Assembly (NCBI RefSeq): GCF_029227915.1
Contig: NC_079875.1
Location: 26,794,001 to 26,858,000 of the forward strand
Length of the DNA: 64,000 nt
Direction: 5' to 3'
From: Hydractinia symbiolongicarpus
Lineage: Eukaryota; Cnidaria; Hydrozoa; Anthoathecata; Hydractiniidae
The notes beneath the pieces are model-generated. The model had not been told where the DNA came from, made no database searches, and saw nothing but the letters and a program-made list of their open reading frames with translations. Of this stretch, positions 3,803 through 61,173 are shown one piece after another (positions within the stretch are counted from its first letter, which is position 1; each line of letters begins with the position of its first letter). Position numbers and translations under genes: made by a program.

Positions 3803-4321
3803 ATCAAGACAAAATCGCAGTCTAATATTAGCACCTCTGAGCAAGTAAGTCCATTTCTTCAACTGTCCTTGACATCGACTGTACAATCTTTAATAGATAA
3901 CTTTTTGGAGAGCGAAGAATTGTCAGTTGTCAACTCGTACTTCTGTCACTACTGCAATATTTACCAAACTGCAACAGTTAAAGAAGAGGTCGCAGAGTTC
4001 AGTTCAATTTTGGTTCTGCAATTAAAATGCTTTGCCTATAACAAAGGTCTTGTGTCTAAGGTTAGTTCTCCTGTCACAACTTACCCGAGCACTGTTTCTA
4101 TACCTATCACCATAGACAGTGAAGTCTCTTGTCGCAAGCACTACAACTTAAGGGTTGCAATTAACCACTCAGGAAATTTGAACAATGGCCACTATACACT
4201 GTTGCTTATAACCAAATGCATGATAAGTGGTTTTATTGCAACGACAGAGCAGTGGTCTCTTGCAAACAAGGCTTGCTAAGTGGTGTACAACCTTACATCC
4301 TTTTCCTTGAAAAGCTTAGGT
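3803..4321 (+). pseudogene. USP (C19 deubiquitinase) domain, C-terminal part
   Basis: The frame from about 3803 gives SPFLQLSL, a CHYC zinc-ribbon half, LQLKCFAYN, and the His box GNLNNGHYT (His near 4190). A frame change follows; the other frame continues through CNDRAVV to a YILFLEKLR end at about 4321. It aligns with the longer copy at 24,262-25,127. The catalytic Cys part is missing, so this copy cannot encode an active enzyme. The start is not natural: homology simply begins at the truncation point. Confidence 0.7.
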
Positions 4322-4350
4322 AAATTGCAATCAACATCACAACTTCCGGT

Positions 4351-4850
4351 TTATGTCAGCAAGGGGGTTTGACTATTCTACTCGACTTATTACCCTAGTC
4401 AAAAACAAAAAAAAAATAAACAAACAAAGCACAGTCTTATATTTGGAGAGTGACGACTCCACTTCTTACCCCAGTCACACAAGATTGTCCAGAGTAGGAC
4501 AGATGAAAAGGTATGGATGAAAGAAATGTCTAGTTCCTGCTGAAGACTGTTTGCAGACCTCTTTTGTGGTGACTCAACTAGACATTTGGGTACCTTGGTT
4601 CAGGAATATGAGTCGAAACCTTTGTACCCTTTACAGAAGTCCTGTCCTACTCTCTCTGTCTGTTTGTTTGTTCAGTTTTTGTGCTAATCATCTCCTTGGA
4701 AAAAGAAAGAATTGTGTTCTTTTATATGAGCATATTCTTTTGAGGAAACAAAAGAATTTAAGTGTGAAGACTTAACTGGTCGAGTTTATCATTGTGCGCG
4801 CCCTTTGTAATTTTCATTCTTCTCATAAGTAATTCGGCAAAACTCTTACC
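4351..4850 (+). repeat. USP-LINE 3' UTR, copy 1
   Basis: Non-coding LINE tail with a 12-bp perfect inverted repeat, AAATGTCTAGTT / AACTAGACATTT, at 4524-4535 and 4576-4587. Similar tails occur at 25,146-25,690 and 49,252-49,570, and end fragments at 45,238-45,345 and 46,760-46,905. Confidence 0.7.
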
Positions 4851-4920
4851 AGTTGTAGTGTAAGGAGTTATTCGGTATGTGAACAAAAAATCGATTCAGT
4901 TTAACGTTAAGGAGACTTTA

Positions 4921-5874: not shown

Positions 5875-6154
5875 AATAATCTAACACCACTATTTATGTT
5901 GTGAACTCAACCTTTTTGTCATATATTTACTGTTGTATTTGTTATTTCTGACGATTTTATCATTTCCAAGTTCAAAAGCTTGATTCATCAATTGCTTTCA
6001 TTACTCAACAATCTTGTTTCCTATGTTACAAAGAAATCTGCACTTCTGCTCACATTCTTGGTGCTTGTAAAACTGCTTTTTCCCAGGGAAGATATACCTT
6101 CAGACACCATTCTGTACTTACCCACTTAGTAGAAACTTTGAAAAAGTTGATTTT

Positions 6155-6256
6155 TAAACTTCCTTCTGAACCTTCTAAAAAATGCCACAAAATAACCTTC
6201 GAATATGCGTCCACAATTACTAGGAGCATCTTTCCCAAGAAAGGTCTCTCTCCCAC
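6155..6256 (-). pseudogene. Ty3/Gypsy integrase core N-side fragment
   Basis: The minus-strand reading RPFLGKMLLVIVDAYSK matches the start of the integrase catalytic core, including the first catalytic Asp in VDAYSK. The homology fades after about 30 residues. Confidence 0.6.
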
Positions 6257-6259
6257 GAA

Positions 6260-7430
6260 TGGATCAGCGCACGGTTTGTCTAAAACAAAATGTTTTGCAA
6301 TAGTATTTTAAGAATAATTACACTTTCAAAATTCCATGCATGAATATTTTGTTCCGTTTAGAAAAATGGAAAATTTAACTAACAGTCTGGAATAATAAAA
6401 TAGCTATAGATATACCAACATTATATGACATGCTCATGAAGACATTCTTGATATCCATCTTGACATTTTGGGGATCTGTATCGTAAAACCCATCTTGGCT
6501 TCTCATGTTTGTAAAAAGATTGTATGTATCTCCGCATACCTTGATTTATTTCTCACCTTGCTCTTTACCGATAAAATGCATGACTTTCATGCTCAATTAT
6601 GGGTCCACCTCATCTCAGTAAGGGTGTCATCTCTTAGACATTCTCATCCTTGACTGATGACTGTATTCCTTAAATCTGCGAAAGACGTTGTTCGCCAAGT
6701 CTCTTTGCTTACTGTATTAAAATTTTTACACCTATTGATTATGCGTGCAATCGAACCCACCCGCAAACAAATTAAATAAGGATTTTTGATGATCCATATA
6801 GTTTAAGACAAAAATTCAGGAATTGATGCTCTGAAGATGGAGTTTACTTCTATATTAAGAATTTTTTTAAAATATTAACTCATTTTTCATTATACAAGCA
6901 GTATTTATGAAGATTAGTATTGATGAGGGGTCATGAAGATTAGTATTGATGAGGAGTCACGACAAGATTTCTCACTAAAAAGAACAAGTGCAATAATTTA
7001 TGTACTAATATAAGATGAATAACCATATGAATTGCACAATTACTCGTCGCTGATTCTTGCGATGGAGCCGAGAGCAAAAATGATAGAAAGTGTAAATTAA
7101 AAACCAAGTTTGCAGCTAAATTTTAAGTGGATTATTATTAATTCATAATTAGAAAATTCAAAACTTTTCAAGCTATAAAGCGAAATTCCCCTTCAGACAG
7201 TAGCTTCCCATCAAGGTCAGAATAGAAGAAACCAAGTAAAAGTTAGCAACGTGCTAGAATTATTGTCCTAGGACTCAATTAAATTTTCTGTTTTTTACTG
7301 ATAACTCGCAAATTATAATGTAACTGCACTCATATTCATGTGATTACTACTACAAAAAATTTCTATGATCAACTCTGCATTCTTTTTTGACAATAGACTC
7401 TCTCATTTCAAGGGATAATTTTAACCTGTT
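6260..7430. other. AT-rich stretch without recognised genes
   Basis: Nothing coding was recognised. A 27-bp unit (ATGAAGATTAGTATTGATGAGG) is tandemly doubled at 6908-6960. The rest is unique-looking AT-rich sequence. Confidence 0.5.
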
Positions 7431-12944: not shown

Positions 12945-14195
12945 AAATGGGAATCCTCTTTACCTCAAATCTCATACACAGGCTGATTTTTATGGCTCTC
13001 AGACGCTATGGTGTACCAGAATCCTGGATAGGGCTCATACAGCTATACTACGACAGCCTGTGGAGTAAGTCTTTTTCGGCTTCTGCTCCATCCAGTTGGC
13101 ATCAACACTGTAGGGGGATTTTTATCGGCTGTACACTTTCCATTATACTATTTCTTGCAGCTATACACGTTATTATTGAATATGTTTTTGTTACTCCCAC
13201 CCTTATTGATACTGAAGGTAATAAAACAAAATCCCAGACCAACCCTCAATAAAAGCTTTTATGGATGATATATTCGTAATGTCCACGTCAATTCCAAGTA
13301 CTCAAAATTTATTAAACAGGTGTACAACAGCTCTTGATTGGGTAGGCATGTCGTTTAGGCCTTCTACATCACACAGCATTGTTATTGATAAGGTAAAAGT
13401 CGTCCAAAGTTCACCGTTTTACAGTTGGCAGCGAAAAAATTCCATCCATTCATTCTAATCCAATTAGGTTTTTAGGCAGAACAATAAACTCATCCTTGTC
13501 TGATTCTGCTGCAATACAAGAATTTCTAAATGATGCCGAAGACAAACTTATAGCTATAGAAAGGTGCTTTCATAAAGGGGTCCATAAGGTTTGGTTTTTA
13601 CACCATCTGTTAATTCCCAGAATCCGCTGGCCATTATTAATCTATGAAGTTTCTCTATCTACTATCACAAAACTAGAGCAAAGATTTTCTGTTGTCATTA
13701 GGAAATGGTTAAAACTACATCATTCAATTTCCAACATTTCCTTATATTCCTCGACATCGCCTTGTCCTCTTCCCCTGAAAAGTCTTGCATCTGTTGTCAG
13801 ATCTGCCAAAATCAGTGGACATCTGTTACAAAGAGATTCTGTCGACCCTTGTGTGTCAAAGTGCGTACCAGAAGCTGGAAATTGGAAAGTTAGTGATGCA
13901 GTTCTTTTGGCGGATAGTCAACTCTATTTCAAAAGGATTTTAGATTTGCATCAGACTGGTCGAGCTGGCTAAGGGCTACTAGACCACAAAAATATACCAC
14001 CAAAAGGCACTTATGCTTACCGAAAGCTTGTTTTCAATATTATTGAAGAAAATGAAGAAGATATTTACCATGCCAGAGCTTTACAGTTGCATTTGCAAGG
14101 CAATTGGACAAAATGGTGCTCTTTTGTGAAAAATGATTTATCTTGGAGAACAATTCCTTCACTGCCACAATGTCTAACTTCCTTTTGTAGATTAT
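12945..14195 (+). pseudogene. R2-like LINE reverse transcriptase (left half of split element)
   Basis: Frames broken by several shifts read LIHRLIFMALRRYGVPESW, the RGIFIGCTLSIILFL block (RT motif 4), the catalytic AFMDDIFVMST (about 13,255-13,285), RFLGRTI (about 13,465), and a long thumb region with LLIPRIRWPLLIYEVS and SAKISGHLL. It ends in LPQCLTSFC near 14,195. Related cnidarian LINE proteins continue at this point into a short linker and a CxxC-H-C knuckle. Here that knuckle lies 9.2 kb downstream at 23,423 on the same strand. The left end is 5'-truncated just before the KAF motif. Confidence 0.7.
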
Positions 14196-22905: not shown

Positions 22906-22972
22906 CAGCTGACACACTGTGTGTCACCAGCTGCCACACAATACCGACGGGTTTCCCGTGGATCACACACAG

Positions 22973-23378
22973 TTACAATGTATCAGACAGTAACAGCCCA
23001 CGCAACGTGTGTCAGCAGCCGTGCCACAATACCGTATGGTGTCACGTCGCGTCAGTGACATGCTTACCTTCACTGACAGCTGACGCTTACATCTGTCTTG
23101 CGTCGAAAGCTGTTACAAGGTCACCCAAAGTAACAGGTGCCGCCTGTCACCATGTAGCTGCCCGTCGTTTCGCAGTTACAATGTATCAGACAGTAACAGC
23201 CCACGCAACGTGTGTCAGCAGCCGTGCCACAATACCGTATGGTGTCACGTCGCATCAGTGACATGCTTACCTTCACTGACAGCTGACGCTTACATCTGTC
23301 TTGCGTCGAAAGCTGTTACAAGGTCACCCAAAGTAACAGGTGCCGCCTATCACCATGTAGCTGCCCGTCGTTTCGCAG
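22973..23378. repeat. 203-bp tandem duplication, near-identical
   Basis: Two head-to-tail copies (22,973-23,175 and 23,176-23,378) differ at only about two positions, so the duplication is recent. Open frames inside it are by-products, since 203 is not a multiple of three and no motif is present. Diverged pieces of the same satellite occur at 56,690-57,110, next to a family X relic. The second copy ends right where LINE homology resumes. Confidence 0.85.
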
Positions 23379-23385
23379 TCAAGCC

Positions 23386-25128
23386 TGGGGCGGGTCTGGC
23401 GGGGTACGGTCGCGATGGAAGTTGCATTCTGTGCAAGAAACCATCCTCAAATGTCTCTCACATATTGGGTGCCTGTAGGACCTCTCTTTTGCAGGGTAGA
23501 TACACATACCGGCATGACTCGGTTTTAACAGTTTTGGTTAAGATATTAAAAGAGTTTTTGGTATCATATGAACCTCTTAGGGTTTCCAAGTGCAACAAAA
23601 TTAATTTCATTCCGGCCGGTCAATCACCATCTAAGAAGAGGCATACAAAGTGTCCAGGCCTTCTTCACCTTGCTTCCGATTAGAAAATACTGTCAGATTT
23701 AGATTCCGTTTTAGTTGTTCAACCTTACACTGCAATAACGCAACTACGCCCAGACGTGTTATTAATATCCAGTTTTTCCAAAACTGTAATTATGGTAGAA
23801 CTGACTTGTCCATGGGAAGAGAACACGGAATATTGGCACAAACGAAATCTTAAAAAATATTCTTTACTTTGTTATGCTATGAAAAACAATGGATGGATCG
23901 TGCATTTCTTTGCCATTGAAGTGGGTACAAAGGGTTTCTGTTCAGAATCAGTAAGGACCTGTTTTCGTCGCTTTGGTTTCCCTAACAAGCCTTTACGTTC
24001 CCTATTAAAATTCCTAACTTTTACCTCCATGAGTGCCTCTTTTTACATCTGGATGTCTCGAAATTCTACCACTTGGGTTGAGCCTGAAAAGGCCCCAATC
24101 ATTCCTGTAGTTTCTGTCACAAATATGGAATGTAAGAAATCAAAAGACCCTGAGAAATCTTCCGCAAGTCACACAAAATCGTGTAAAATCAAAAAACTTG
24201 AAAAACGTGCTACAAGGTCTCCCAAAACAACAGTCGCATTGCCATCTAACCCTGATTTTAGGAATAGCGGTCTAAAAATCTGGGGAAACACATGTTATGC
24301 AAACTCAATCTTACAATGTTTTTATAACCTTCCAAAAGTTAAAGAAGCTATTTCTGTCAGCAAAACAACCTCAAAGTTAGGCGAAGCATTTGTAGGTGTT
24401 CTTCAAAGTTTGGCTATTTCCAGAAGTCCAGTTGATCCCTCCCATTTTTTGCGTGCTATGAAACATCATATCTCAGCTGCGAAGGGAAGTGCATTTAATA
24501 TCTTTGCTCAGCACGACATCCCCGAGGTTCTTGAATATCTCCTACCTGGTCTGTCATTAGACTTTCCATTTCTTGGAAGTCTTTTTAGTATTGGCATCAA
24601 GACATCTACCACTTGCAATTCATGTCATATTACGAGCTCCTCAGAAGTTATAGCACCATGCATCCAAATTTCTCTGCACCCTACGCTACAATCTTCCTTA
24701 GATAATTTCTTTGAAAGCGAGGAGTTGTCAGACACCAATGCCTACTTCTGCCATGTTTGCAACGCTCAACAAACTGCTCTAGTTGAAAAAGAGTTAATGT
24801 CGTGCGGTTCCCATTTCATTTTACCGCTAAAACGTTTTGCCAGTGCCAACGGCCTTGTGTCAAAATTGCCTTTCGTATTACTGCTTACCCTGGTACCCTT
24901 TCCATACCTTTTACCGTAGATGGAGAAGTGAAATTTCGTAAAAATTTTCAATTAAGGGCTATTATCAACCATTGCGGCAACTTAAATGATGGTCACTACA
25001 CAACCACAGCCTTCGATCAAATGGTTCACAGGTGGATACATTGCAATGATAGAGCAGTAATTTTCTATGATGACCGCCTTATTAACAGTCACGAGTCATA
25101 TGTTTTCTTTTTAGAAGAGCTGAGATAA
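23386..25128 (+). pseudogene. LINE ORF: CCHC - RLE endonuclease - USP deubiquitinase
   Basis: One reading frame holds all parts up to a single late shift. The knuckle C-x2-C-x8-H-x4-C starts at CILCKK (23,423), and QGRYTYRHDSVL follows. An in-frame TAG sits at 23,681, probably a changed Trp codon. Next comes an R2-type PD-(D/E)XK endonuclease: RPD (23,747), VELTCPWE (Glu near 23,798), a K-rich KRNLKKY helix, FFAIEVG and IWMSRN. A basic linker of about 60 residues leads to the USP core: Cys box IWGNTCYANS (Cys at 24,293), the HDIPEVLEYLL block, zinc-ribbon CNSC...CHVC, FILPLKRFA, a frame change near 24,870, then the His box NDGHYT (His 24,994), WIHCNDRAV (Asn/Asp 25,045-25,050) and SYVFFLEELR to the stop. 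The USP core is compact, near 290 residues. The fused order is unusual for this LINE class. Confidence 0.72.
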
Positions 25129-25129
25129 G

Positions 25130-25690
25130 AATATTTTAACCAGAATGAGTCAGCAAGGGGGCTTGACTACACTCAGTCTTGTCTTTGGAGAGTGGCGACT
25201 CCACTTATTACCCCAGTCAAAAATAAAACAAAATCAAATAAAAATTAAGTTAGCAAGGGGTTTGATCACACATGATCTTGTCTTTGGAGGGTAAGAGTAG
25301 CACGGTTGAACAGAAAGTGGTCAAAGTTTACTTTAGGAAGATAGGGATGTCTAGTTTCTGCTGATGACCGTCCGCGGACCTCTTCGAGGTGACCCAGCTA
25401 GACATCCAAGGTACTTAGGTTCAGAAATATGGGTCGAAACCTACCTGGCCTGGGTTTAAGTTCTCTTCATCTTTTTAAATGTGTTGTGTCCTTTTAATTT
25501 TTTTACATATTTTTTAATTAATTCCTTGCAAAAAGGGAGAATTGTGTTTTTAGAGGCATTTTCTCTAGAGGAGTACAACCTCTAGCTTATTTCCAAAGAC
25601 CTAACAGATTGAGTTCATCATTGCGGTGGCTTGCCACCTCTTTGTAAATTATTTTCTTAACATTTTATTGTTCTCAAAATGTTGTTAGAA
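25130..25690 (+). repeat. USP-LINE 3' UTR, copy 2
   Basis: Non-coding tail with a partial internal doubling (AGCAAGGGG...GATCTTGTCTTTGGAG) and the conserved stem GATGTCTAG / CTAGACATC enclosing a second short hairpin, ACCTC-TTC-GAGGT. It ends near 25,690, with no polyA tail visible. Confidence 0.65.
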
Positions 25691-26404: not shown

Positions 26405-26796
26405 ATCTTCTAAAAAATTACTTACTTATCTTTTTTCTTTAATTTGGCTGGTCTACCGAAAATTTAGATTTTTATTTCATTGTCCTATTTTTACAATCTG
26501 CTTTAACAAAAAAATCGAGACGGAAATTTATCTCCTATGTGGTCAATTCCAATTAAATTTATTACCAAGAATAACTCTCAAATATTTTGTTGATTTGACT
26601 CTCAATAAACACCACTGGCATTGCGACGACTAATGAGTCACAAAACTTCCACTTCGACGGCACGTGGCATGGCGTATGCGTCAGCAGCTGTCAAATATGG
26701 CAAAGTAACACATTTATTTGGTCCCCATTTTCTTTTACCCTGGACTGGATATTGTTAAAGTGTATTGGAAGTATCAGTGTCACGTACATTAGCAGC

Positions 26797-27879
26797 ATGG
26801 AAAATTTAACTAATACACCAATTGTAGAATTCATTGATACACCACTTCGTAAAATTAGCTCGACTTCAGATATTCCTATAATTCTTGAAAGAAATGGAGT
26901 TAAAGAAAGTGATGAATCGTTTATAGACCGCATGTATTCAAACATCAACTTACAAAAAATGAAAGGTGAGCTAATACACGATCTTAAAAACTACCTTGAT
27001 GAATGTGTTAAAAATGTTGCTCTGTCAAACCGTCACGTTTCTACCGAATGGGATAGTAATAAAATGTTTAGTGTGTTGGAGGAAAGGATTTTATTTTTGG
27101 AAAAGGAAGTAAATGCCAAAAATGAAATGATACAAATGTTATTAGCGACGAAATCATCAACGCGTGACGACATACTACATAACTCTCATAGCTTCAACAA
27201 ATTAAAATCTTGCGAAACAAACGAGAATTTTACAATTCCCAAGGACACCGTTAAGGCAAAAATCATTAAACAGAGTTCCTTTATTCACGCAAATCGCTTT
27301 GAAAACTTGCCCATTGAAGAAATAATGGATGATGTAAATAGTGTTGCCAACGAAGTGCCGCATAAAACGCCGCGAAGGAGATCTGACAAAAAATCTAAAG
27401 TTACGCAAATAATTGGAGACTCGATTGTAAAAGAAGTGAAGGGCTGGAAACTTTCTTCAAACGAGAACAAGATTATAGTGAAATCCTTCTCTGGAGCCAC
27501 GACTAAATGCATGGAAAGTTACGCAATACCAACTACGAACATGTCTCCCGATAACATTATTATTCATTGTGGCACTAACGATCTTAATAGAATCGAAACC
27601 GATCAAATTGCTCAAAACATAGTAAAATGGGCTATTAAATTGAAATCTGGTGAAAATAATGTAATGATATCGGGCATAATTCAACGAAAAGACAGACTAA
27701 ATAAAAAGGTGATGGCAGTCAACAAATCTCTCGCTCATCTTTGCGAACAAAGAAACATCGGCTTTATCAATAATGATAATATAAACCCCGACTTGCATTT
27801 GAATAGAAGTCGCCTTCACCTAAATATGAAAGGGACTTCAATATTGTCTCGGAACTTTCTACAGGTGATTGAGGATTGA
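26797..27879 (+). CDS. CR1-type LINE ORF1 with SGNH esterase domain
   Basis: About 360 residues from MENLTNTP; an in-frame ATG also exists at 26,752. The first 200 residues are charged and partly coiled-coil-like (EERILFLEKEVNAKNEM). The second half is an SGNH/GDSL hydrolase: IIGDSIV (nucleophile Ser block), SFSGATT, IIIHCGTNDL (Asn block) and a C-terminal DLHLNRSRLHLN with the Asp/His pair. CR1 and L2 ORF1 proteins are known to carry such an esterase and to bind nucleic acid; its role in retrotransposition is unclear. The frame is intact and ends 99 nt before ORF2. Confidence 0.82.
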   Translation: MENLTNTPIVEFIDTPLRKISSTSDIPIILERNGVKESDESFIDRMYSNINLQKMKGELIHDLKNYLDECVKNVALSNRHVSTEWDSNKMFSVLEERILFLEKEVNAKNEMIQMLLATKSSTRDDILHNSHSFNKLKSCETNENFTIPKDTVKAKIIKQSSFIHANRFENLPIEEIMDDVNSVANEVPHKTPRRRSDKKSKVTQIIGDSIVKEVKGWKLSSNENKIIVKSFSGATTKCMESYAIPTTNMSPDNIIIHCGTNDLNRIETDQIAQNIVKWAIKLKSGENNVMISGIIQRKDRLNKKVMAVNKSLAHLCEQRNIGFINNDNINPDLHLNRSRLHLNMKGTSILSRNFLQVIED

Positions 27880-27978
27880 CACAAAAAACCTGTCGAAATT
27901 TACGACACAGATCCACCGAACACTGCCTCAGATACTTTTGATTCAACATATGATATTTTCACTCTACGTCGCAGTAAC

Positions 27979-30829
27979 ATGTGTAACTTGATAGTCGGTC
28001 ATTTGAACGTAAACTCGTTGCGAAACAAGTTCGAAGCAATTGATTTAACTTTCAAGCACAATATTGATGTTCTGCTTCTAACTGAAACGAAAATAGATGA
28101 ATCGTTCACTGATGCTCAATTTAAGTTAGATAATTACGCAATTCTGAGGAAAGATAGAAATGGACATGGTGGCGGTATTTTACTCTATATAAATGAAAAT
28201 ATTCCCTTCAAAGTGTTGCGAAAATATACTTTACCGGATGATATCGAAGTTTTAGTTGTCGAAATAAATCTTCGAAAACGCAAATGGCTTTTAATCGGTG
28301 CATATAAACCACCGTTACAAAAAAATTACTACTTTTTAACTCAAATCGCAAATGTATTGATTTCACATCTCAACTATCACGAAAACATCATAATTATGGG
28401 TGATTTAAACATGGAAATAAGTGACACAGATTTCGATAACTTCATTTCAACATACAACCTCCATAGACTAATCAAATCACCAACCTGCTTTAAGTCAAGT
28501 ACTTCGCCTTCTTGCATTGATCACATATTAACAAATCAACCAAATTTCTTTAAAAATAGTGTAACAATCGAAACTGGCATATCAGATTGGCATTTATTTG
28601 TTGGAAGTGTGATGAGAATGAACGTGATTAAAGGCGACCCAATTGTGAAACACTACAGAAATTACAACAAAATTGACTACTTTGATTTTGAAAGAACATT
28701 ATCAATGAACTTTTTGAAATTACTTGAGAACAATTACGACTTTAACCAATCCAATTTATGCATCACGTCTACGCTAAACCATTTTGCACCATTGAAAAAG
28801 AAAATACTAAGATTCAATAACGCACCTTTTATCACCAAGGAGCTTCGCAAAGCTATTATGCACAGATCCAAACTTCGTCGCATATATAACAAATCACGAT
28901 CAAAAGAAAATTGGTCCAACTTCACTAGACAGAGAAACTACTGTGTTTCCTTATTACGAAAAACCAGACGTTCGTATTTCAAGGGTTTACGTATGACAAG
29001 CATTACTGATAATAAAAAGTTCTGGAAGTCTGTCAAGCCATTGTTTTCAAACGTTAGTTATAACACCAACAAAATTATCTTAATCGAGAAAGAAAAGATA
29101 GTCACCGACGAACAAAAATTATGCAAAATCTTCAATGAATATTACACCAACATCACGAAAAATTTACCAATCAAACCAAACGATGATACACATACAGCAA
29201 CCATTCACGATGCAATCCACTCGTATACTAATCACATCAGTATTTTGAAAATTCGTGAAAATGTGGGTTATGATGAAAAGTTCTATTTTTCGCTGGTTGA
29301 ACAGCCTGATGTTCTCAAAGTCATCAAAGACATGGATGCAAAGAAATCTTCTGTTAGTGGTGATTTTCCAGTTTTTATGTTGAAAAAGTTTATTCATATC
29401 TTTGTTCCTATCCTCACTAATATTATAAATTTTTGTTTACAGTCTAATATTTTTCCTGATGATTTAAAACTTGCAGAGGTTATACCTGTTTTTAAGAAGG
29501 ATGACTGTAATGATAAGGAGAACTATAGACCTGTTAGCTTGCTTCCCTGTTTATCAAAGGTTTTTGAAAGAATTATTCTTAATCAAATGCACACTTTTAT
29601 GCATGACAAACTCAGCCCTCATCTATCAGGCTTCAGAAAGGGTTATAATACACAATATGCTCTCATTCGAATGATTGAACAATGGAAAAGCACACTTGAT
29701 AATAAGGGTGTAGTTGGAGCAGTGCTAATGGACCTTTCAAAAGCTTTTGATACTATCAACCATGATTTGCTTATTGCAAAGCTGCATGCCTATGGTTTTT
29801 CTGAATCTTCTTTATTATTTATTCACTCATACTTGAAAAATCGTTTTCAGAGAACCAGAATAAATTCTTCTTTTAGCGAATGGCTTCCTCTTCAAGTTGG
29901 AGTTCCACAAGGATCAATCTTAGGACCTCCTTTCTTCAATTATTCTATAAACGATTTATTCTGGTTCATTATTCAATCATCCCTTTGTAACTTTGCAGAT
30001 GATAACACCTTATATGCTTGTGAAAATTCATTAGAAGATGTAAAACAAACACTGCTTACTAATTTGGTCATAGTTAATAATTGGTTTTATGAAAATTACT
30101 TAGCAATAAATTTGAAAAAGTATCAATATATTGTATTAGGTCATCACGATGAAAGTTTGATATTTAACCATTTGAAAATTGCGTGTAAATCGTCTAGTGC
30201 TTCTTGGTGTTACGATTGACTCGAGACTAAACTTTCATTCGCATGTCAAAAACATCTGTAATAAGGCTAGTAGGAAACTCAACGTGCTTCAAAGGATATC
30301 TTCCTTTTTGACACCCAAGATGAAGCGTTTTCTCTTCAATTCATTTATTTTGTCTCAGTTTTCTTACTGTCCCTTAGTATGGATGTTTTGTGGAAAAGTT
30401 GCGAATAATCGAATCAATCGTATTCATGAACGTTGTCTAAGAATCATACAGGACGATATAAATGGCAGTTACGATGAACTTTTATCTTTATGTAATGTTA
30501 AAAATATTCACATCATCAATTTACAGAATTTAATGAAAGAGGTTTACAAATTTTTAAATGGATTGTCACCTCTATATATGAACGAGATATTTTCTGTTAG
30601 GGAAAACAAGTACAACCTTCGTTGCTTTAATTTGATCAGGCGACCAACTTGTCGGACAACGTACTATGGCTTAAATACTTTATCAAATATTGCAGGGAAG
30701 CTATGGATATCTGTGCCTGACGCTACAAAGAATGCTCCTTCTCTCGAAGCCTTCCGTAGCTCAATAAAATTTTGGGAAGGTGATGTTTGCACCTGTAAAA
30801 TATGCATGGATATACCATACATATTTTAA
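27979..30829 (+). pseudogene. CR1-type LINE ORF2 (APE endonuclease + RT), one frameshift
   Basis: The N-terminal AP-endonuclease-like domain shows NVNSLRNKF, LLLTETKID, DRNGHGGGILLYI, IIMGDLNMEI, CIDHIL and ISDWH. The RT follows: NYRPVSLLPCLSKVFERII, VLMDLSKAFDTINHDLL, GVPQGSILGPPFFNY, and catalytic NFADDNTLYA (Asp pair at 29,998-30,003). A frame change between about 30,170 and 30,195 moves the reading into the frame ending at 30,829, which carries LLGVTIDSRLNFHSHV and the C-terminal NRIHERCLR and CKICMD blocks. The total is about 945 residues, normal for the family. The first 746 residues are open, so only the shift prevents full translation. Confidence 0.85.
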
Positions 30830-36770: not shown

Positions 36771-39700
36771 ATGTCTGTTATAAGCATTGCAGTTGGTGAT
36801 GCATTAAAATCATTGAAGTATTGGATTGATCAGGATGCTGATGAATTTTCTGGTAAGCTTTACTTTATCTCATTCCATTTCTGGAAATCTGTTTGAATAT
36901 TATCTTTTTATATATACATTAATTCTCGGTAAAATTAAAAAAAAACATCATCCACCAACTTGAAATTTTTTTTTCTGATTATGTTAAAAAATTGTGCGAC
37001 ATCATTAAATTTTCATTTTGTAATCTTTCTTGCTAAATTGTGAATTTTACAGGTTTACAAAAAAATTGAAAATTTCAGGATGCATCAGTTCTTGTTTGCC
37101 AAGTAGAGATAGTTACTTATTATTCACCTTTGAGTGAAGGTTTCACATCGCAACAGGCATATTTTTTTCTGTTCCCATATATGGTAGTAGCTCTAATTTT
37201 CTATATTGCTATTTGTGTAGTACCTTTAAAAAATTTTATTATCCCTTATTTTCATTGATTGATTTCAGTTGAAAAGGTTGACGAATCTATGTTGACTAAA
37301 ATGGATGATATTATTAACGAGATACAAGACAAATCCATAACACAATTTGCAGAGTTGTGTGATAAATATATCCACCAAGTGCTGCTGGGGAAAAGACCAA
37401 ATTATCGCCTTGATGTCTTCAAACACAAAGTAGTTGAAATTGATGGACAGAGATTGATGCCACACCATTTGATGTACCATAATGTTGAAAGTGGTTATGG
37501 TAATTTTAAAGACACCCAATTAGATTCTATGAAGGTGGTCCTTAACAAATTTGTGGACTGCGATAACCAAGAGAGACTTGTTGTGGATGTTTTGCAGTAC
37601 ATAGTGGTGTTGTGGACTACTATTGGTTTTTGCAAAGTTAGCCCTGCAGTGGCACGTTTTTACCTGGCTGAGGGAGGTAAAGATAGAGGCAAAGAAGCTT
37701 ATGACATGCTCGAGCGGAGATGTAAGAAAACTTGTTGGTTTCAGTACCCTGTTGTGACTAATATCTCGAACCAAAATAGAAATTTACCCATGTCTTTTAT
37801 GAGTTTGATAATCACTTGTTTGTAGTAGTGTCTGTTTTGAAATTATCTCCACTGAAAAATTGTGAGGATTGCTATTACCTAGAAAAAGTGTCAACGATGT
37901 TTGAGGGAATTGTACTTCTCAGAACAATTTTCGTTTTGTGAATTTGGGATTCTTTCTTTAATCGCTTATCACAGTTTTCTTTGTTGATTTAATACTTGGT
38001 AGTGTTTGCTGTCATTTATCATTCTTTTTATTAGAAAAAGCCTGCCAAGACTATTACTGTGAAAATTTATATTTACTTAATGAAATTCTTTTATAGTTAT
38101 GAAACGATCAAGTATAATAGCAACGGAAGTAAAGAAAAGGGAGAAGGGAAATGACGAGAAAATTGCAGAACAAGAGGGATCTATTAAAACAAATGTTGAG
38201 GTGGTAAGAACTTTAATTATTTAGCTCCCTTACTATCGTGACGGACGAAAATTGTAAATAACTTGTATGATGATATGTAATCATAAAGTTCTCAGCTTGC
38301 TGTGTAATAGCATCTTTAAATATAGATCTATCTATAAAATCCGTACACTTTGTTATTTTTACTCTTAGGGCCAAAAGAGGACGTACAAAAAGGAGAAGAA
38401 GATCTGTCCAGAATGTGGGGAAAGTAAATTTAATTTGCCTCGTCACGTGGAAGATTAACACAAATGGACAAAAGCAAAGTCTAAACAGATAGTGATAAGC
38501 CATAGTCTGAGAAAGCCCTACAATTGGCACCTTGAAACACCCAGTAGGAAAAAAGGAGGCGCAGATAAAAAAACTTATCCAGACTATCATGTTCCTCGCA
38601 TATGTCCGTTGCCAACATGTTTGAGAGTGGTAAAAAAAATGTCAGAGCATCTCCAACTCTACCATAAATTGGAGACTAATGAAGAGTATTATGCGTTATT
38701 ACGTTCCTCCCGTCCCGTTTCCAAAAGCAACGAAGCTCCTCGGGAAGAATCAAGTGTAGATTTTGAGACGAACTTCAACAATCCGGTTACTGAAGCAGAA
38801 CGCAACGACTGCGAAAGCAGCACAAGCTTTGACAATAATGGCACAATGCAACAGTTTCTGGCGTACCTGATGTCCCCAGATGGTGGGCAACGTGAAAGGA
38901 AAAGTTCCTTGCAAGCTGTTAGCGAAGTACGCACAGTGGTAAATGTTTTGGGGGGCCAGCTTATTAATCTATTTAAGAAGAATAAGATCAGAGACGATTT
39001 TTTTGTCAATTACTTAGACAAGAAAAGCAAGCCGGCAACCTCCAAGCACTACATGTCTTCGCTAATTTCATTCATGGAATTTGCAGTCAGTGAAGGTTTG
39101 GAGTTGCCTGAACTTTGTGTGGATGATTTTATAACCGCGAAATTACGCCTACATAAATGGCGTAAAACTTATAATAAAGTCATCGATGAGCAACGTTGGG
39201 ACAGAGAAGAAGCTCAAATGGAGCTTTTAGTCAGTCCAGACCAATGGGCAACATTTGAATGCAGCGAATTGGCCAGAAATGCGGTAAAACTGTTAGGGAC
39301 AGCATCAGAAAGCGAAGTTTTCACCATGTTGGAATACACCAACGTGCGTGATTACTTGATGACTGTTATCGCTTTGCAAAATGCACACAGAGCGGGTGTA
39401 GCATCCAATTTAACTTTGGAGGAATTTGGAAAGCGCAAGTTAGATGACAGCGGTCATAATATTCTCATTAAGGTAAAGTACCACAAAACAAAAAGTACGC
39501 ATGGCCCAGCGGTAATTTGCATCCCTGTCCAAAAAGCAAGATTATTGGAATTATTTGTTAAATACCTAAGGCCACAGGTACCTGGACAGGCCAATCAGGT
39601 GTTTGTTTCTTGGAATGGAAAACCGTTGGAATCTGGCAGTGTCAGTAAACAAATACACTCCATTTGGACACGCTCTGGAGTTTACGATGGTTTTGAAATG

Positions 39701-40474
39701 CCAAAAGGGAACATAAACACTACGATAATACGCAAATCCATCACAACTCGCGTCCATGATCAGCAACCAGATAACGCACAGCCTGTAGCTGATTTGCTTG
39801 CACATTCATTGTCCACTGCTAAGAAAGTGTATCGCCTTAGAGAGCGCGAAAAGCAAGCCGTTGCAGGAATAAACGTTATAAATTCTGTCTTTGAAAGACC
39901 AAGACCAAATTCAACACCATCCAAACCAAACAAGTGGAGCAAAGACGAGGAGGCAAAAGTGTTGCAATACTTTGAAAAAGAAATTGCTGCGCAATACATA
40001 AATATTTCGATGATCAGGGAAAAATTGCCATTACTAGACATCTCTAAATCTGAGAAACAGATTTACGACAAAATTCGTTCCTATTTTATTTACGATGCAG
40101 GTACAAGTAGCAACGTTGAAGATCAAGTAAAAGTAAAAGAAAATGCAGCTCTTGAACTTTGTCCTCCCGTTGATCCATCATTTTATCAGCAATCTGAGCA
40201 TGACGACTGTTCGTCTATCGCGACTGACGTAATACCACCAACAACATCGTCTAATCTTTCCGGTCAGCAGAAATTGTTTGATTCTATTGAAACCAATGAA
40301 ATCAAAAGTCTTTGTTTTGACATCATAAAAGGTGGTCCAATTTCTGCTGAACGCATACTGGAAAAATTGAGTAAATCAGAAATTGGTAGAGAAATTCTGC
40401 AAAAGTATAAAATTATGCAAGTCCAGACCAGGCTGAAATACGAACGCCGAATGTACAGAATGAAAAAACGATAA
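36771..40474 (+). pseudogene. Crypton-like tyrosine recombinase, four exons, one stop
   Basis: Proposed exons are 36,771-36,852, 37,269-37,721, 38,097-38,203 and 38,369-40,474. All have GT-AG borders and the phases match at each joint, giving about 915 residues. Exons 1-2 encode an unrecognised domain of about 178 residues. Exon 4 starts with a C2H2 finger (ICPECGESKFNLPRH, then an in-frame TAA at 38,456, then HKW) and a second finger, CPLPTCLRVVKKMSEHLQ. The recombinase core (about 38,970-39,880) shows the first Arg in NAHRAGVASNL (about 39,390), a Lys in YHKTKS, Arg in TTIIRKSITTR, His in LLAHSLSTAKK and the Tyr nucleophile in KKVYRL (39,830). A Myb/SANT-like segment, NKWSKDEEAKVLQYFEKEI, follows. 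Only the one stop was found. Exons 1-2 could instead be a separate gene ending at 37,825. Confidence 0.65.
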
Positions 40475-45230: not shown

Positions 45231-45237
45231 TTTAAAA

Positions 45238-45345
45238 AGTGAGAATTGTGCTTTTAGAGGCATATTCTCTAGAAAAAAAGGGAGAATTGTACTTTTAGAG
45301 GCATTTTTTTTAGAGGAGTACAACCTCTAGTTTGATTCTAAAGAC
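45238..45345 (+). repeat. USP-LINE 3' UTR end fragment, doubled
   Basis: GAATTGT(G/A)CTTTTAGAGGCA appears twice (45,243 and 45,287), followed by GAGGAGTACAACCTCTAG. It matches the last part of the tail after the USP LINE (25,534-25,590). Confidence 0.6.
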
Positions 45346-46274
45346 CATGACAAAGATTATGACATCCCATAATGAATACTTTGCACGATTCCAAAGCAAA
45401 AGGAAGAGCGAAGGCCTCACCCTCGATTGTTGCATATCGTCTCTCTGCGGAGGTTGTAAATCGGGATCCAGCATAACATATCTTCCAATGTCCTTCGCCA
45501 CATTGTGGGTCGACAGATGGACATTCCCAATTTTATGGAACAATGTGAACCCTATTCCATTCTTGCTCCAGTGTGTATTATTGCACGCTTGTCGGTTGAC
45601 TTGAAATGTGTGTACACCGTTTCAAATGCTATCTAAGATTTCTGATTTAGAGGACTGATTTAATTGTTCAAGATTATAGTCCCAATAAACTTTTCCATCA
45701 TGTTTTAGCAGAACAATCGAAATGTGGACAATATAGTGGCCTAAGCGAATAAATATGACGTTTGATTCACAAGTCGGAACAAGGATGTAAGGACCTGTAA
45801 TATACTTTGGAGATGGAAAATTTCTGATAGGATCCATAAGTTTAAGATTAGGTTGGTATCCTTCCTGGGAGATGTCAAATCTAGCAAAACCGTATCTTTG
45901 GCAAATTCGAACTTCTTTGGGTTGAAAACTACACCATTATCTGCACACAATTTGATATAGCGAATTGTGTGCCAAAAAGCGGAAGCGATATCCTTGTCCC
46001 ATAGAAGAGAATCATCGACGATTTGTTTTACTCTAGAGATGTCCTTAGTAATGTCATCGAACCCCTTTGTGTAGCCATCATTGGATGCCTTGAATCCCTG
46101 AGGAGCAGGAAGGTAGCGGTACCTCCCCCATTCTGTGATGTACGTGGTAGCGTCGTGTGCACTGTTGTTGATATTGTGGGTTGGTTTTGAGCAGCGACCG
46201 GTTGCATTGGGTACAGCAGGTGATTTAGCGATGAGCTTAGACATTAGCCGTGCCATCTGTTCCTGCTTTGCCAT
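45310..46274 (-). pseudogene. Ty3/Gypsy RT and RNase H fragments
   Basis: On the minus strand, TTYITEWGRYRYLPAPQGF, SNDGYTKGFDDITKDI, the catalytic QIVDDSLLWD (about 46,020) and NGVVFNPKKFEFAKDTV form the palm of a Gypsy reverse transcriptase (46,160-45,880). After breaks, HWSKNGIGFTLFHKIG (about 45,560) and DIGRYVMLDPDLQP resemble the RNase H entry of the same polyprotein. Protease, upstream RT and integrase are absent, and no LTR was recognised. The direction matches the integrase pieces near 5-6 kb. Confidence 0.65.
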
Positions 46275-49220: not shown

Positions 49221-49249
49221 CGGAAAAACAAAAAACAAAACAAAAATTA

Positions 49250-49570
49250 TGTCAGCAAGGGGTTTGACTGCAATGGTCTTACATTTGGAGAGTGACGACT
49301 CCACTTCTTACCCCAGTCACACAACAGTCAAACAAGGTTGTACGGAGTAGGACAGATAAAAAGTTATGGATGAAAGAAATGTCTAGTTCCTGCTGAAGAC
49401 TGTTCGCAGACCTCTTTTGAGGTGACTTAGCTAGACATTTTGGCTACCTTGGTTCAGGAATATGAGTCGTAAACCTTGTGCCCTTTCAGAAGCCCTCTCT
49501 CAGCCTGTTCGTATGTTCAATTTTGTGTCAATTGGAAAAAGGAAGAATTGTGTTCCTTTATATGAGCATA
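49250..49570 (+). repeat. USP-LINE 3' UTR, copy 3
   Basis: It begins GTCAGCAAGGGGTTTGACTG, has GAGAGTGACGACTCCACTTC, and carries the hairpin AAATGTCTAG (49,377) / CTAGACATTT (49,431-49,440). It stops matching at 49,570, where a Helitron-like 5' end begins. No USP coding remains. Confidence 0.7.
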
Positions 49571-49990
49571 TCCTTGATGTTACTATCCGCCCTCGCACAT
49601 TGCGTAATAACCTGACGAAAAGAAAAAAGTATGACCACCTTTTTATGATTTGCTACATTTAAAAATAAAAAAAAACAAATACATTATCAAATATGATTGA
49701 TAACGGTGGAATCGAAAGTGTGTTTTGATAAGGAGTAAAAACTACATGGATTTCGTGTAACTCAATAAAGTCAAAATTCAGTGCTCTTTTGTAGCCCCTA
49801 ATTTATATACAGAATCGGTTTTTGGTAACTATTGTTTTCATCATAAAACAAAACAGAAGTATAAGTTGCATCTTTAATTATGCGTTGTTCGTTGGGTATA
49901 ATACTTGGATACGTCTGTCTGTCTGTCACGCAAAATGGTAGCTAAGCTGCGACAGGCGAACCCGTGGATTTTCCACGGGCTAACGACTAG
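49571..49990 (+). mobile_element. short Helitron-like element with clear 3' end
   Basis: The 3' end CCCGTGGATTTTCCACGGG is an 8-bp-stem hairpin, followed by CTAACGA and CTAG, then a T. The proposed 5' end is TCCTTGATGTTAC after an A, at the point where the LINE tail stops matching. The 3' end is close to that of the Helitron ending at 33,268; the 5' end is inferred. Confidence 0.5.
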
Positions 49991-58117: not shown

Positions 58118-58345
58118 AATTTTGCTGATGTCAGCAATTGCCCCATCAAGACCGAAAATTTTTTTTTATAAATTTGTATACCTGTTGCCTTCATCGTATA
58201 GATGAAGAAAATGCATAGGAATATGTACTTTTGACAAACGGTTGCAGAGATATCAAGGTTTAAAGGTGTTTTGATGACGTCGTCAACCCGTCCATTCCCA
58301 AACGGATTCGGGGACCCTGGTTTTAAAACTTACCCAAATTCGTCC
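58118..58345 (-). repeat. inverted Helitron, left remnant
   Basis: Matches the reverse complement of about 32,400-32,620, for example ACGGTTGCAGAGATATCAAG, GATGACGTCGTCAACCCGTC and ACGGATTCGGGGACCCTGG. The match stops where the LINE at 58,346 begins and resumes at 61,175. Confidence 0.7.
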
Positions 58346-61173
58346 CAGGTACTCCGCGCTATTAAACATAAAAAAATTGCACCCCACAAAATTATTGATC
58401 GGACATCTAAATATAAATTTACTCAGAAGCAAAGTACTATCCTTACAGGAGGTTGTCAAGGATCATTTGGACATTCTGCTGATATCTGAATCAAAACTTG
58501 ATCAATCGTTTACCGATGCTTCAATTGCCTTAAATGGTTTCAAACGTCCCTATCGAAGAGACCGAAACAAAAATGGCGGGGGATTGGTTTTGTATGTTAA
58601 TTGCGAAATAATTAGTAATGCTATAAAACTCCCTTCTTTACCTGAAGATATCGAAATAGTTGGGATCGAAGTTATCCTTCGTGCACAAAAATGGCCCGTA
58701 CTGGGCATTTACTCACTCACTCACTGTGACTGTTATAAAAGCGGCGATGCCAAAAAAGAAACCCCGCATTATAAAGTACAGGTCTAAAAAAAACTTCAAT
58801 AAATCCGAATTCCAAAAAGACCTTACTAAGTCAATGGAGTTACAGGAAGTGAATTTCGCAAACCTCGATACAGCTTTTAAGAACGTAATTGAAAAACATA
58901 TGCCAGTGAAGCAAAAGATGGTTAGAAACAATCATGCACCATTTATTACGAAGAGAGTACGCAAAGAAATTATGATTAGAAGTAGAAAAAGAAACGTATA
59001 TAATTCGAATCCAACTGCTGAAAATTGGAACTCTTTTTGAATTCAAAGGAATAACTGTGCAAAGATTGTCAGAGATGCAAGAAAGAATTATTACAGAAAA
59101 CTTGACGTGTCGAAAGTTCGAGACAACAAAGCATTTTGGAAAATCGTGATACCAAATTTCTCCGAGAAAGCAATCAAGGAAAATATAACTTCATTAGTCG
59201 AAGATGATGCTGTTTTACGAAATAAAGTTGAAATTGCAAACGTCATGAATGATTATTTCGTAAATATCACAAGATCACTGAATGTAAACAACATCCCTGA
59301 AAACAATCCAGGAACAGCTGATGATTGCTCTCGTACCGAGGTTGATGCATTATTTCAAGTTTCAAAGAACATCCGAGCATAAAAAATATCAAATCAAAAT
59401 TCTCCAAAGGTGCTGACATGGACGAAATGAAATTCTGTCATGTTTCTGTTGAAAAATTAAAACTTTATATTGGTTCTTTAAAAAGTGGCAAGGCTTGTCC
59501 AGAGGGAGACATACCTGCAGATCTTCTCAAAGCTCACGCAAATGTTTTTGTTAAGCAGTTGAGTCACTGTTTTAATGACTCAGTAGATAGTTGCATCTTT
59601 CCTGAGTCTTTGAAATTTGCGGATGTGTCTCCACTCTACAAAGCAAAGTCTAGGGTCTGCAAAGAAAATTATCGACCAGTTAGTAAACTGCCAAACATGG
59701 CTAAGGTGTTTGAAAAAATCTTATTTGAACAGATAAGTGAGTTCATGGAGGGGAAAATGTCCCCTATCTTGTCTGGATTCAGGAAAGGATACAGTAGCCA
59801 ACATGCTCTTTTAAATCTAATGTGCTTTCTTCAAAAAAAGTTAGACTCTAAAAAGTGTGTTGCTGCCTTGCTCATGGATCTAAGCAAGGCTTTTGACTGT
59901 ATTAACCACAAGCTACTTATTGCTAAGCTTCATGCTTATGGATTTTCTTCTAGTGCATTATCTTTTATTTGGAACTATTTAAAGAAGCGCTTTCAGAGAG
60001 TAGGTATTGATGGGGTTTTTGGTTGTTGGAAGGAAATCTTTTCTGGTATACCACAGGGGTCAATTTTGGGGCCGTTACTGTTTAACATATTTTTAAATGA
60101 TTTTCTTTTTCAATATGACGTGAATATGCCGCCCTGCTCTGATATTCTAGTGTGTAACTGTGCTGACGATAATACGTTTTGTGCATCAGCTGAAACCTTT
60201 CACGAAGTAAAATATATGTTAGAACAACTTTTTAGGTCAGCAGCTTTATGGTTTTCCGATAATGGCTTGCAATTAAACGCAAGCAAATGCGATTTTATAA
60301 TATTCGGAAAGCCAGAAAGTCCACAAATCCGGCATTTAAATTTAAATGGAGCAATTTTATCTGCATCCAAATTTGTAAAGCTTCTTGGTATTAAATTTGA
60401 CAGTCAACTTACTTTTGCAGATCATATAAACACACTGTGCAAAAGAGCTAGCTGTAAATCTAATGCCCTGAAGAGAATTTCCTGGATTGTTGATAATAAA
60501 CAGAAAAGTTTATTATATGCAACATTCATAGCATCTGAGTTCAATTATTGTCCTTTAGTCTGGGGATTTAATAGCAGGAAATCTATTTCAAAGGTGGAAT
60601 CCATTTCTTCTACGAAAAGAATTCATATGCAACATTGTAGACAATTACTAAAAGAGGTCTACAAGACGAAATGGAAATTGAATCCTTCCTACATGGAAGG
60701 TGTGTTTCAGTTTAGAAATGATACTGGATATAATTTAAGGTCATTAAGTGCTTTAGTTAGACCTAGAATAAAATCTTCAAAATATGGGCTGCAAACATTT
60801 GGATATATAGCCTCCCAATTATGGAATTCTCTTCCTGATGAAATCAAATCTGCAGAGTCTTTGGTTAAATTCTGTAGAGCTATGGGCGAATTTTCTTCTT
60901 TCCAATGCAAATGTCGGATCTGTGCAGAATACATAATTAATTTAGGAATTATTTAATTTTTCGTTTAAACAGTCGATTTTAATTAGTCTTGATAGACTAA
61001 CCATCTTCTCCAGTAGAGTCTTTCATGTTTTTCAGCCAAAAAGCTTCCGGATTGATTCTACTAGAGAAATGGTATTTTATTATTATATATTATTAGTTTT
61101 TTTTATTAGTATATTTTATTAGTATATTTTAAATCTTTTGTACATTATCGACTATAAATAAAGCAATCTATCT
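58346..61173 (+). mobile_element. CR1-type LINE inserted into a Helitron, 5'-truncated
   Basis: It starts within the first codons of ORF2 (LLIGHLNINLLRSK) and ends with TATAAATAAAGCAATCTATC just before Helitron sequence resumes. ORF1 is absent. It is related to, but distinct from, the LINE at 26.6-31 kb. Confidence 0.7.
58377..60956 (+). pseudogene. CR1-type LINE ORF2 relic
   Basis: An AP-endonuclease start (IGHLNINLLRSKV, LLISESKLDQSFTDA, RNKNGGGLVLYVN) is cut off near 58,710 by an internal deletion of the rest of the domain. Frames broken at 59,038 and 59,380 then lead to a 512-residue open RT: NYRPVSKLPNMAKVFEKIL, LLMDLSKAFDCINHKLL, GIPQGSILGPLLFN, a catalytic block NCADDNTFC (about 60,158) with Cys where Phe or Tyr is usual, LLGIKFDSQLTFADHI, and the C-terminal QCKCRICAEY knuckle. 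The RT half is the best-kept part. Confidence 0.75.

Follow-up and report, generated by a model that had tools for sequence, protein, structure and literature searches.

A 64,000-nucleotide stretch of the Hydractinia symbiolongicarpus genome (assembly GCF_029227915.1, contig NC_079875.1, positions 26,794,001 to 26,858,000 of the forward strand; hereafter the window) contains the remains of a long interspersed nuclear element (LINE) in which a restriction-like endonuclease (RLE) is joined to a ubiquitin-specific protease (USP). The element is an RLE-encoding retrotransposon that lacks long terminal repeats (non-LTR) and has a single open reading frame (ORF), in the order N-terminal part, reverse transcriptase (RT), CCHC zinc knuckle, RLE, linker and USP. 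The window copy is dead and 5'-truncated; the same genome holds young intact copies, and the RT-CCHC-RLE-USP arrangement is almost certainly a real functional fusion. Judging from its sequence, the USP is very probably an active deubiquitinase. To the statement as a whole, that a USP-bearing RLE LINE deubiquitinates in cis, we assign a probability of about 0.48.

Architecture of the window copy

The CCHC knuckle, RLE and USP of the window copy lie within positions 23402-25128, and RT is not contained in it. Its features are as follows.

23411-23683, + strand: CCHC zinc knuckle followed by the first stretch of the RLE, up to and including the in-frame TAG (start of homology between 23402 and 23414, varying with the relative compared)
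23684-24076, + strand: second part of the RLE, signature RPD...E.T...K, with P23750, D23753, E23798 and K23855 (end approximate)
24077-24265, + strand: RLE-USP linker, in frame (limits approximate)
24266-24868, + strand: first part of the USP domain, with Asn 24287, catalytic Cys 24293 and zinc ribbon 24614/24623/24749/24758 (PF00443, E=1.1e-13)
24877-25128, + strand: second part of the USP domain, past the frame change, with His 24994, Asp 25048 and stop TAA 25126-25128 (PF00443, E=8e-9)
25129-25661, + strand: 3' untranslated region (3'UTR), with blocks common to two further window copies, A and C, ending where similarity to a sister copy elsewhere in the genome (L056, 92% identical) stops
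25345-25407, + strand: predicted three-way-junction hairpin of the 3'UTR RNA

An earlier, sequence-only reading had proposed that a CCHC knuckle, a PD-(D/E)XK endonuclease and a USP share one frame, broken by one TAG and one late shift. The residues and both breaks were located: the knuckle residues lie at 23423/23432/23459/23474, the TAG at 23681-23683 and the frame change near 24866-24877. Likewise, the Cys box, zinc-ribbon cysteines, His box and catalytic Asp named in that reading could all be placed at window residues. The zinc ribbon has the form C-x2-C ... C-x2-C, a pattern present in many USPs, and the RLE signature positions are invariant or nearly so when aligned across relatives. With the Pfam UCH profile (PF00443), both halves of the broken USP frame gave matches (frame 23684-24916, E=1.1e-13; 24877-25125, E=8e-9). 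The proposed start at 23386 has to be moved, as homology to relatives begins only at 23402-23414 and a tandem repeat lies 5' of there. This repeat, two 203-bp units that are 99% identical, spans 22970-23379, immediately 5' of the truncated element.

Intact copies in the Hydractinia genome

A search of the Hydractinia symbiolongicarpus genome (480,894,487 bases, 76 contigs) gave at least 150 PF00443 matches, out of which 34 different retroelement-like USP loci were read. Twenty of these (L038-L057) were picked for long frames, and ten (L058-L067) were spread over weaker matches to offset that choice; the DNA of L033 and L037 is that of L048 and L053, respectively, and each was counted once. Two candidates, L030 and L031, were excluded, since they resemble cellular USP genes and their matches are split.

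RLE adjoins USP on the upstream side in 31 of the 34 loci. A full RLE match lies directly 5' of the USP, and in its frame, in all 20 long-frame loci (stops read through as X). In the weaker set, RLE similarity occupies this position in 8/10, all but L060 and L062, and is incomplete or in a different frame in some of them; of the remaining four loci, three show it (L034, L035 and L036, not L032). In 18/20 long-frame loci, RLE and USP are both covered, in whole or in part, by the longest ORF that begins with ATG; in L048 and L057 this ORF ends before any USP is reached or matched. Six copies (L038-L043) have a single ORF of 1421 aa, with RT at 287-825, RLE at 845-1083 and USP at 1130-1420. These ORFs differ by 1-10 residues, and the DNA is 99.3-99.75% identical over 5.6-6.1 kb. 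The same domain order is seen in the ORFs of L046 (1418 aa), L045 (1408 aa), L047 (1236 aa) and L044 (1157 aa). Hence the unbroken RT-CCHC-RLE-USP frame that the window copy had led one to look for exists as intact one-frame copies in the same genome, while several other genomic copies carry frame changes or stops.

The copies fall into subfamilies I (L038 and kin), II (L044, L045, L048, L053 and L054) and III (that of the window copy), each with an uninterrupted RLE-USP frame: L038 in I, L045 in II and, with 667 residues, L056 in III. L056 is 92% identical to window positions 23419-25661. Ratios of nonsynonymous to synonymous differences per site (pN/pS) between subfamilies I and II are about 0.27 for RT, 0.35 for RLE and 0.48 for USP, and about 0.6 for USP against subfamily III, all with synonymous sites saturated.

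Three loci (L032, with an open frame of 299 aa, L060 and L062) have a USP without an upstream RLE; they would be 5'-truncated copies or candidate stand-alone (domesticated) USPs. To the right of L056 the sequence looks like the beginning of a further USP, and to the right of L046 it is similar to the RT piece at window 13950-14020. From these flanks, some copies seem to be nested in others.

Related proteins

The window-frame protein search returned 39 proteins, with precomputed PF00443 in 33 and both PF00078 (RT) and PF00443 in 13. With the RT-RLE part of one relative (P0009), 227 proteins were found, 120 of them listed. Hidden Markov models built from a first alignment were then applied to 143 collected proteins, of which 116 have at least 400 RT positions plus RLE. 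A complete USP (at least 200 profile positions) is present in 71 of these 116 and a partial USP in 7. The remainder comprise 30 that end within 40 residues past the RLE, 7 cut within the RLE and one (P0121) with a long tail, in which a Q/N-rich stretch is followed by the start of a USP. RLE and USP are joined in 103 related proteins by a linker of 30-452 aa that looks unconserved in the alignment consensus.

The active site is conserved family-wide: Asn in 101/102, Cys in 103/103, His in 90/91 and Asp in 91/91 sequences. Cys, His and Asp are all kept in 90 of the 91 stretches that cover the three positions, at a mean USP identity of about 28%. In the one other stretch, P0020, which represents a cluster with 118 member sequences, Tyr replaces the catalytic His. 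The RT catalytic Asp pair, D564/D565, is present in 23/23. No Ulp1 (PF02902) or OTU (PF02338) domain was found in five Pfam-scanned proteins, the window frames or the precomputed Pfam columns of relatives.

In a midpoint-rooted FastTree phylogeny of RT plus RLE (116 sequences, 791 columns), all USP carriers (71+7+1) fall in one clade of 95 with support 1.0. The other members of this clade are the 7 proteins truncated inside the RLE and 9 that stop after it, of which 6 group in a single subclade. All 21 proteins that fall outside it, with named ones from Branchiostoma (P0140) and Mizuhopecten (P0143) among them, likewise stop after the RLE. The clade splits into groups of 34 and 61 with supports of 0.85 and 0.39, a split that is itself not firm. 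Many members of one branch have C2H2 fingers in the N-terminal part of the ORF: N-termini in the 34-member half frequently contain a C2H2-type motif, and the same pattern was not found among members with complete N-terminus in the 61-member half, to which Hydractinia belongs. USP-like proteins from IMG/VR contigs and metagenome-assembled genomes labelled Dependentiae, Holosporales, Chlamydiae and others (L001-L029) served as outgroups only.

Three Hydractinia gene models named ubiquitin carboxyl-terminal hydrolase 2-like, 50 and 51-like (P0171, P0180 and P0255) look like RLE-USP or USP fragments of the LINE. Some Hydractinia genes annotated as USP2-, USP50- or USP51-like thus look like retrotransposon pieces.

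Relation to R2

The element had been called R2-like. Its overall fold fits this description, but no common target was seen, and it is at best a candidate member of the R2 clade. By profile, the RT matches R2 in the PDB (E=8.7e-41); the RLE sequence match to R2 is weak. A model of the whole RT-RLE part has an R2-like fold and could be aligned to R2, the RLE part being folded only within the whole model, and structural Z scores are 33-34 for R2Bm and nearly as high, 31-33, for LINE-1. The USP model has the finger-palm-thumb fold of USPs; its best-matching solved structures include USP21, USP46/12 and USP1, with USP2, USP8 and other USPs of similar score. Copies A, B (the main window copy) and C are 5'-truncated; with copies from the rest of the genome they show the pattern of a common 3' end and no LTR, although a partial repeat of the 3' end at the 5' side exists. 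No shared insertion site or fixed 28S rDNA target is apparent, the 3' flanks of eight loci all being different, and no rRNA family reached the gathering score in the 64-kb window.

Head-to-tail layout of subfamily I

In all eight loci with a complete 5' end (L038-L043, L046 and L057), the element's own 3' end is copied directly upstream, with an identical junction. The visible length of this upstream copy ranges from 116 bp to at least 970 bp (seven measured), and in L040 and L042 it extends to the limit of the sequence that was read. The 3' end of L039 leads into the next copy; L039 and L057 are neighbours that form one head-to-tail pair. The unit in L043 is about 5.37 kb long (5'UTR 348, ORF 4266, 3'UTR 754) and has no poly(A). 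Sequences past the 3' end differ in all eight loci compared (L038, L040-L043, L046, L047 and L057). This layout suggests that transcripts of subfamily I may start in the 3' end of the upstream copy.

Other pieces of the family in the window

Six further features of the USP-LINE family were placed in the window.

3830-4320, + strand: copy A, USP 3' part with His 4190, Asp 4243 and two Cys of the zinc ribbon; the frame changes once, near 4202
4324-4860, + strand: copy A 3'UTR (end approximate)
6003-6284, + strand: further RLE fragment (tblastn)
12968-14188, + strand: broken RT palm/thumb fragment (tblastn, 55% to P0055 and 43% to P0009)
45234-45346, + strand: 3'UTR fragment (89-92% identity to 25530-25601 and 25530-25569)
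49245-49590, + strand: copy C, 3'UTR only

A second truncated USP copy with the same 3'UTR had been noticed before, and copy A bears this out. Its frame 3803-4276 matches PF00443 (E=1.8e-8), and relative to the main copy its USP coding DNA is 65% identical over 373 columns, with 3'UTR blocks better kept (76-91%). For copy A versus copy B, pN/pS is 0.33 (0.25-0.44) over 151 USP codons. The predicted hairpin is common to the three window copies (25345-25407, 4524-4587 and 49377-49440), and its sequence is also found in L056. Two of its pairs are changed on both sides; covariation across copies was not above that of shuffles (66/500). The hairpin is possibly an RT recognition structure.

Other elements are also present. 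One LINE, at 26599-30829, has an ORF1 that matches GDSL esterase below the Pfam cut-off and an ORF2 with apurinic/apyrimidinic endonuclease (APE) and RT; another, at 58278-60956, has an RT in the scanned part, 59346-60953. A 671-aa open frame without Pfam match lies at 38459-40474, and we take it to be reminiscent of tyrosine-recombinase (Crypton-like) elements.

What the USP may do for the element

A LINE protein acts in cis, on the RNA that encodes it, and hence each ribonucleoprotein (RNP) would carry one deubiquitinase. Lying behind the endonuclease in the same polypeptide, the USP would go wherever the RT goes. Acting in cis, it could then deubiquitinate the protein of the element itself, or proteins associated with that protein. 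This would slow degradation by the host proteasome and favour target-primed reverse transcription. RNP deubiquitination would be the simplest benefit: the single ORF yields a long protein, which would last longer in the face of host quality control or restriction. A frozen active site in a fast-evolving domain, a variable linker and apparent losses would fit such an accessory role. That cis-protection of its own protein is the main role of the USP seems to us somewhat short of an even bet.

Several points weigh against this proposal. Close copy pairs within a subfamily hold too few changes, and their ratios scatter from 0 to above 1. Nine of the 95 clade members stop within 40 residues past the RLE without a USP, although a record need not end where its protein truly does, and from these the USP may be dispensable for the LINE. 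The USP tree leaves the USPs of the two clade halves unjoined, with weak deep supports. Finally, the same sequence facts would allow chromatin or repair substrates at the cut.

On that alternative, the substrates of the USP would be chromatin or repair proteins where the element inserts (e.g. ubiquitinated histone H2A/H2B or PCNA) rather than the element's own protein, and its action would ease cleavage of the target, synthesis of the second strand or escape from repair signalling. Following the endonuclease in one polypeptide, it would be delivered to the cut, and USP21, USP46/12 and USP1, among its best structural matches, have chromatin or repair substrates. A repair role for Ulp1 and OTU in DNA transposons is suggested by the authors in a passage of PMC2836005. 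However, USP2, USP8 and others score alike, the fold does not tell the substrate, and the linker length varies from 30 to 452 aa; we consider this alternative unlikely, if well worth keeping in mind. Much less probable is that the USP cuts a ubiquitin-like junction in the ORF protein to free RT or RLE. Some retroelements do process their proteins with encoded proteases, but a Pfam scan of five long proteins shows no ubiquitin-like domain, and the linker is widely variable and looks unconserved. Slightly less credible still is a catalytically dead ubiquitin-binding or structural module: the Tyr in P0020 would suit it, whereas retention of the triad in 90/91 stretches, at about 28% identity, argues against it. 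The window copy by itself, broken and truncated, might be taken for a LINE fragment that happens to lie beside a host USP gene or pseudogene. This idea is already refuted by one-frame intact copies in the same genome and by dozens of distant relatives with the same order; RLE and USP are adjacent in 31/34 loci, not apart in most. Nor is a conserved stop present between them, given six uninterrupted 1421-aa frames and 103 joined relatives, a comparison that included no polyA-signal search or consensus.

Returning to deubiquitination in cis, a broader scenario may be drawn. A deep clade of RLE LINEs would have acquired a USP, in one or possibly two captures, to serve in cis as a counter-restriction enzyme, letting RNPs escape ubiquitin-dependent host silencing; the USP body would diverge fast under host conflict with its active site frozen; and the youngest Hydractinia subfamily would also multiply as partial dimers, with transcripts starting in the 3' end of the upstream copy. 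As one joint claim this is tentative, and more doubtful than its central idea.

Comparison with known elements

To our knowledge, the benefit of a ubiquitin-pathway protease to a retrotransposon is so far unexplained. As a deubiquitinase family, USPs are well studied: inhibitors and activity probes exist for them, and ubiquitin complexes have been solved. Hydractinia symbiolongicarpus is a laboratory animal. Together with its intact, nearly identical copies, this makes ubiquitin restriction of LINEs, and LINE counter-defence in cis, directly testable. The many related elements with the same layout suggest that such elements turn the host ubiquitin system to their own advantage.

Partial dimers are known in Penelope-like elements and a 3'-end promoter in HeT-A. 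The head-to-tail copies with a partial 3' end upstream (8/8 here) resemble these and TART; all of them belong to clades other than that of the present element and are not known to carry a USP. Dualen/RandI LINEs also combine a LINE with a deubiquitinase-type domain, in their case an OTU-like protease, and differ by that fold and by dual endonucleases. Ulp1 is a peptidase family other than USP. NeSL and Utopia-1_TSP (PMC4640811) are likewise RLE LINEs with a cysteine protease of the ubiquitin/SUMO pathway, but their Ulp1, which that paper reports from nematode families, is N-terminal whereas the USP here is C-terminal. Two further cases come from portions of PMC2836005. Ginger1 DNA transposons, including those in Hydra, carry a C-terminal OTU or Ulp1 and thus share a ubiquitin/SUMO protease at the C-terminus of a mobile-element enzyme, there a DNA transposase, here a LINE protein with a USP. 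The Trichomonas protein XP_001314237.1 joins transposase_11 to peptidase C19, a USP-family domain on a transposition enzyme; it is a protist DNA transposase, and one protein is named. Compared with R2 and other RLE-encoding LINEs (CRE, R2, R4, NeSL and HERO, as named in a section of PMC4640811), the present element has a USP following the RLE and no common insertion site. Because Ulp1 and OTU elements are known, and no report of a USP in a LINE was found in the literature searched, we see it as a protease-bearing RLE LINE with a new protease. What is novel among such LINEs is a true USP, carried by a large clade with intact young copies.
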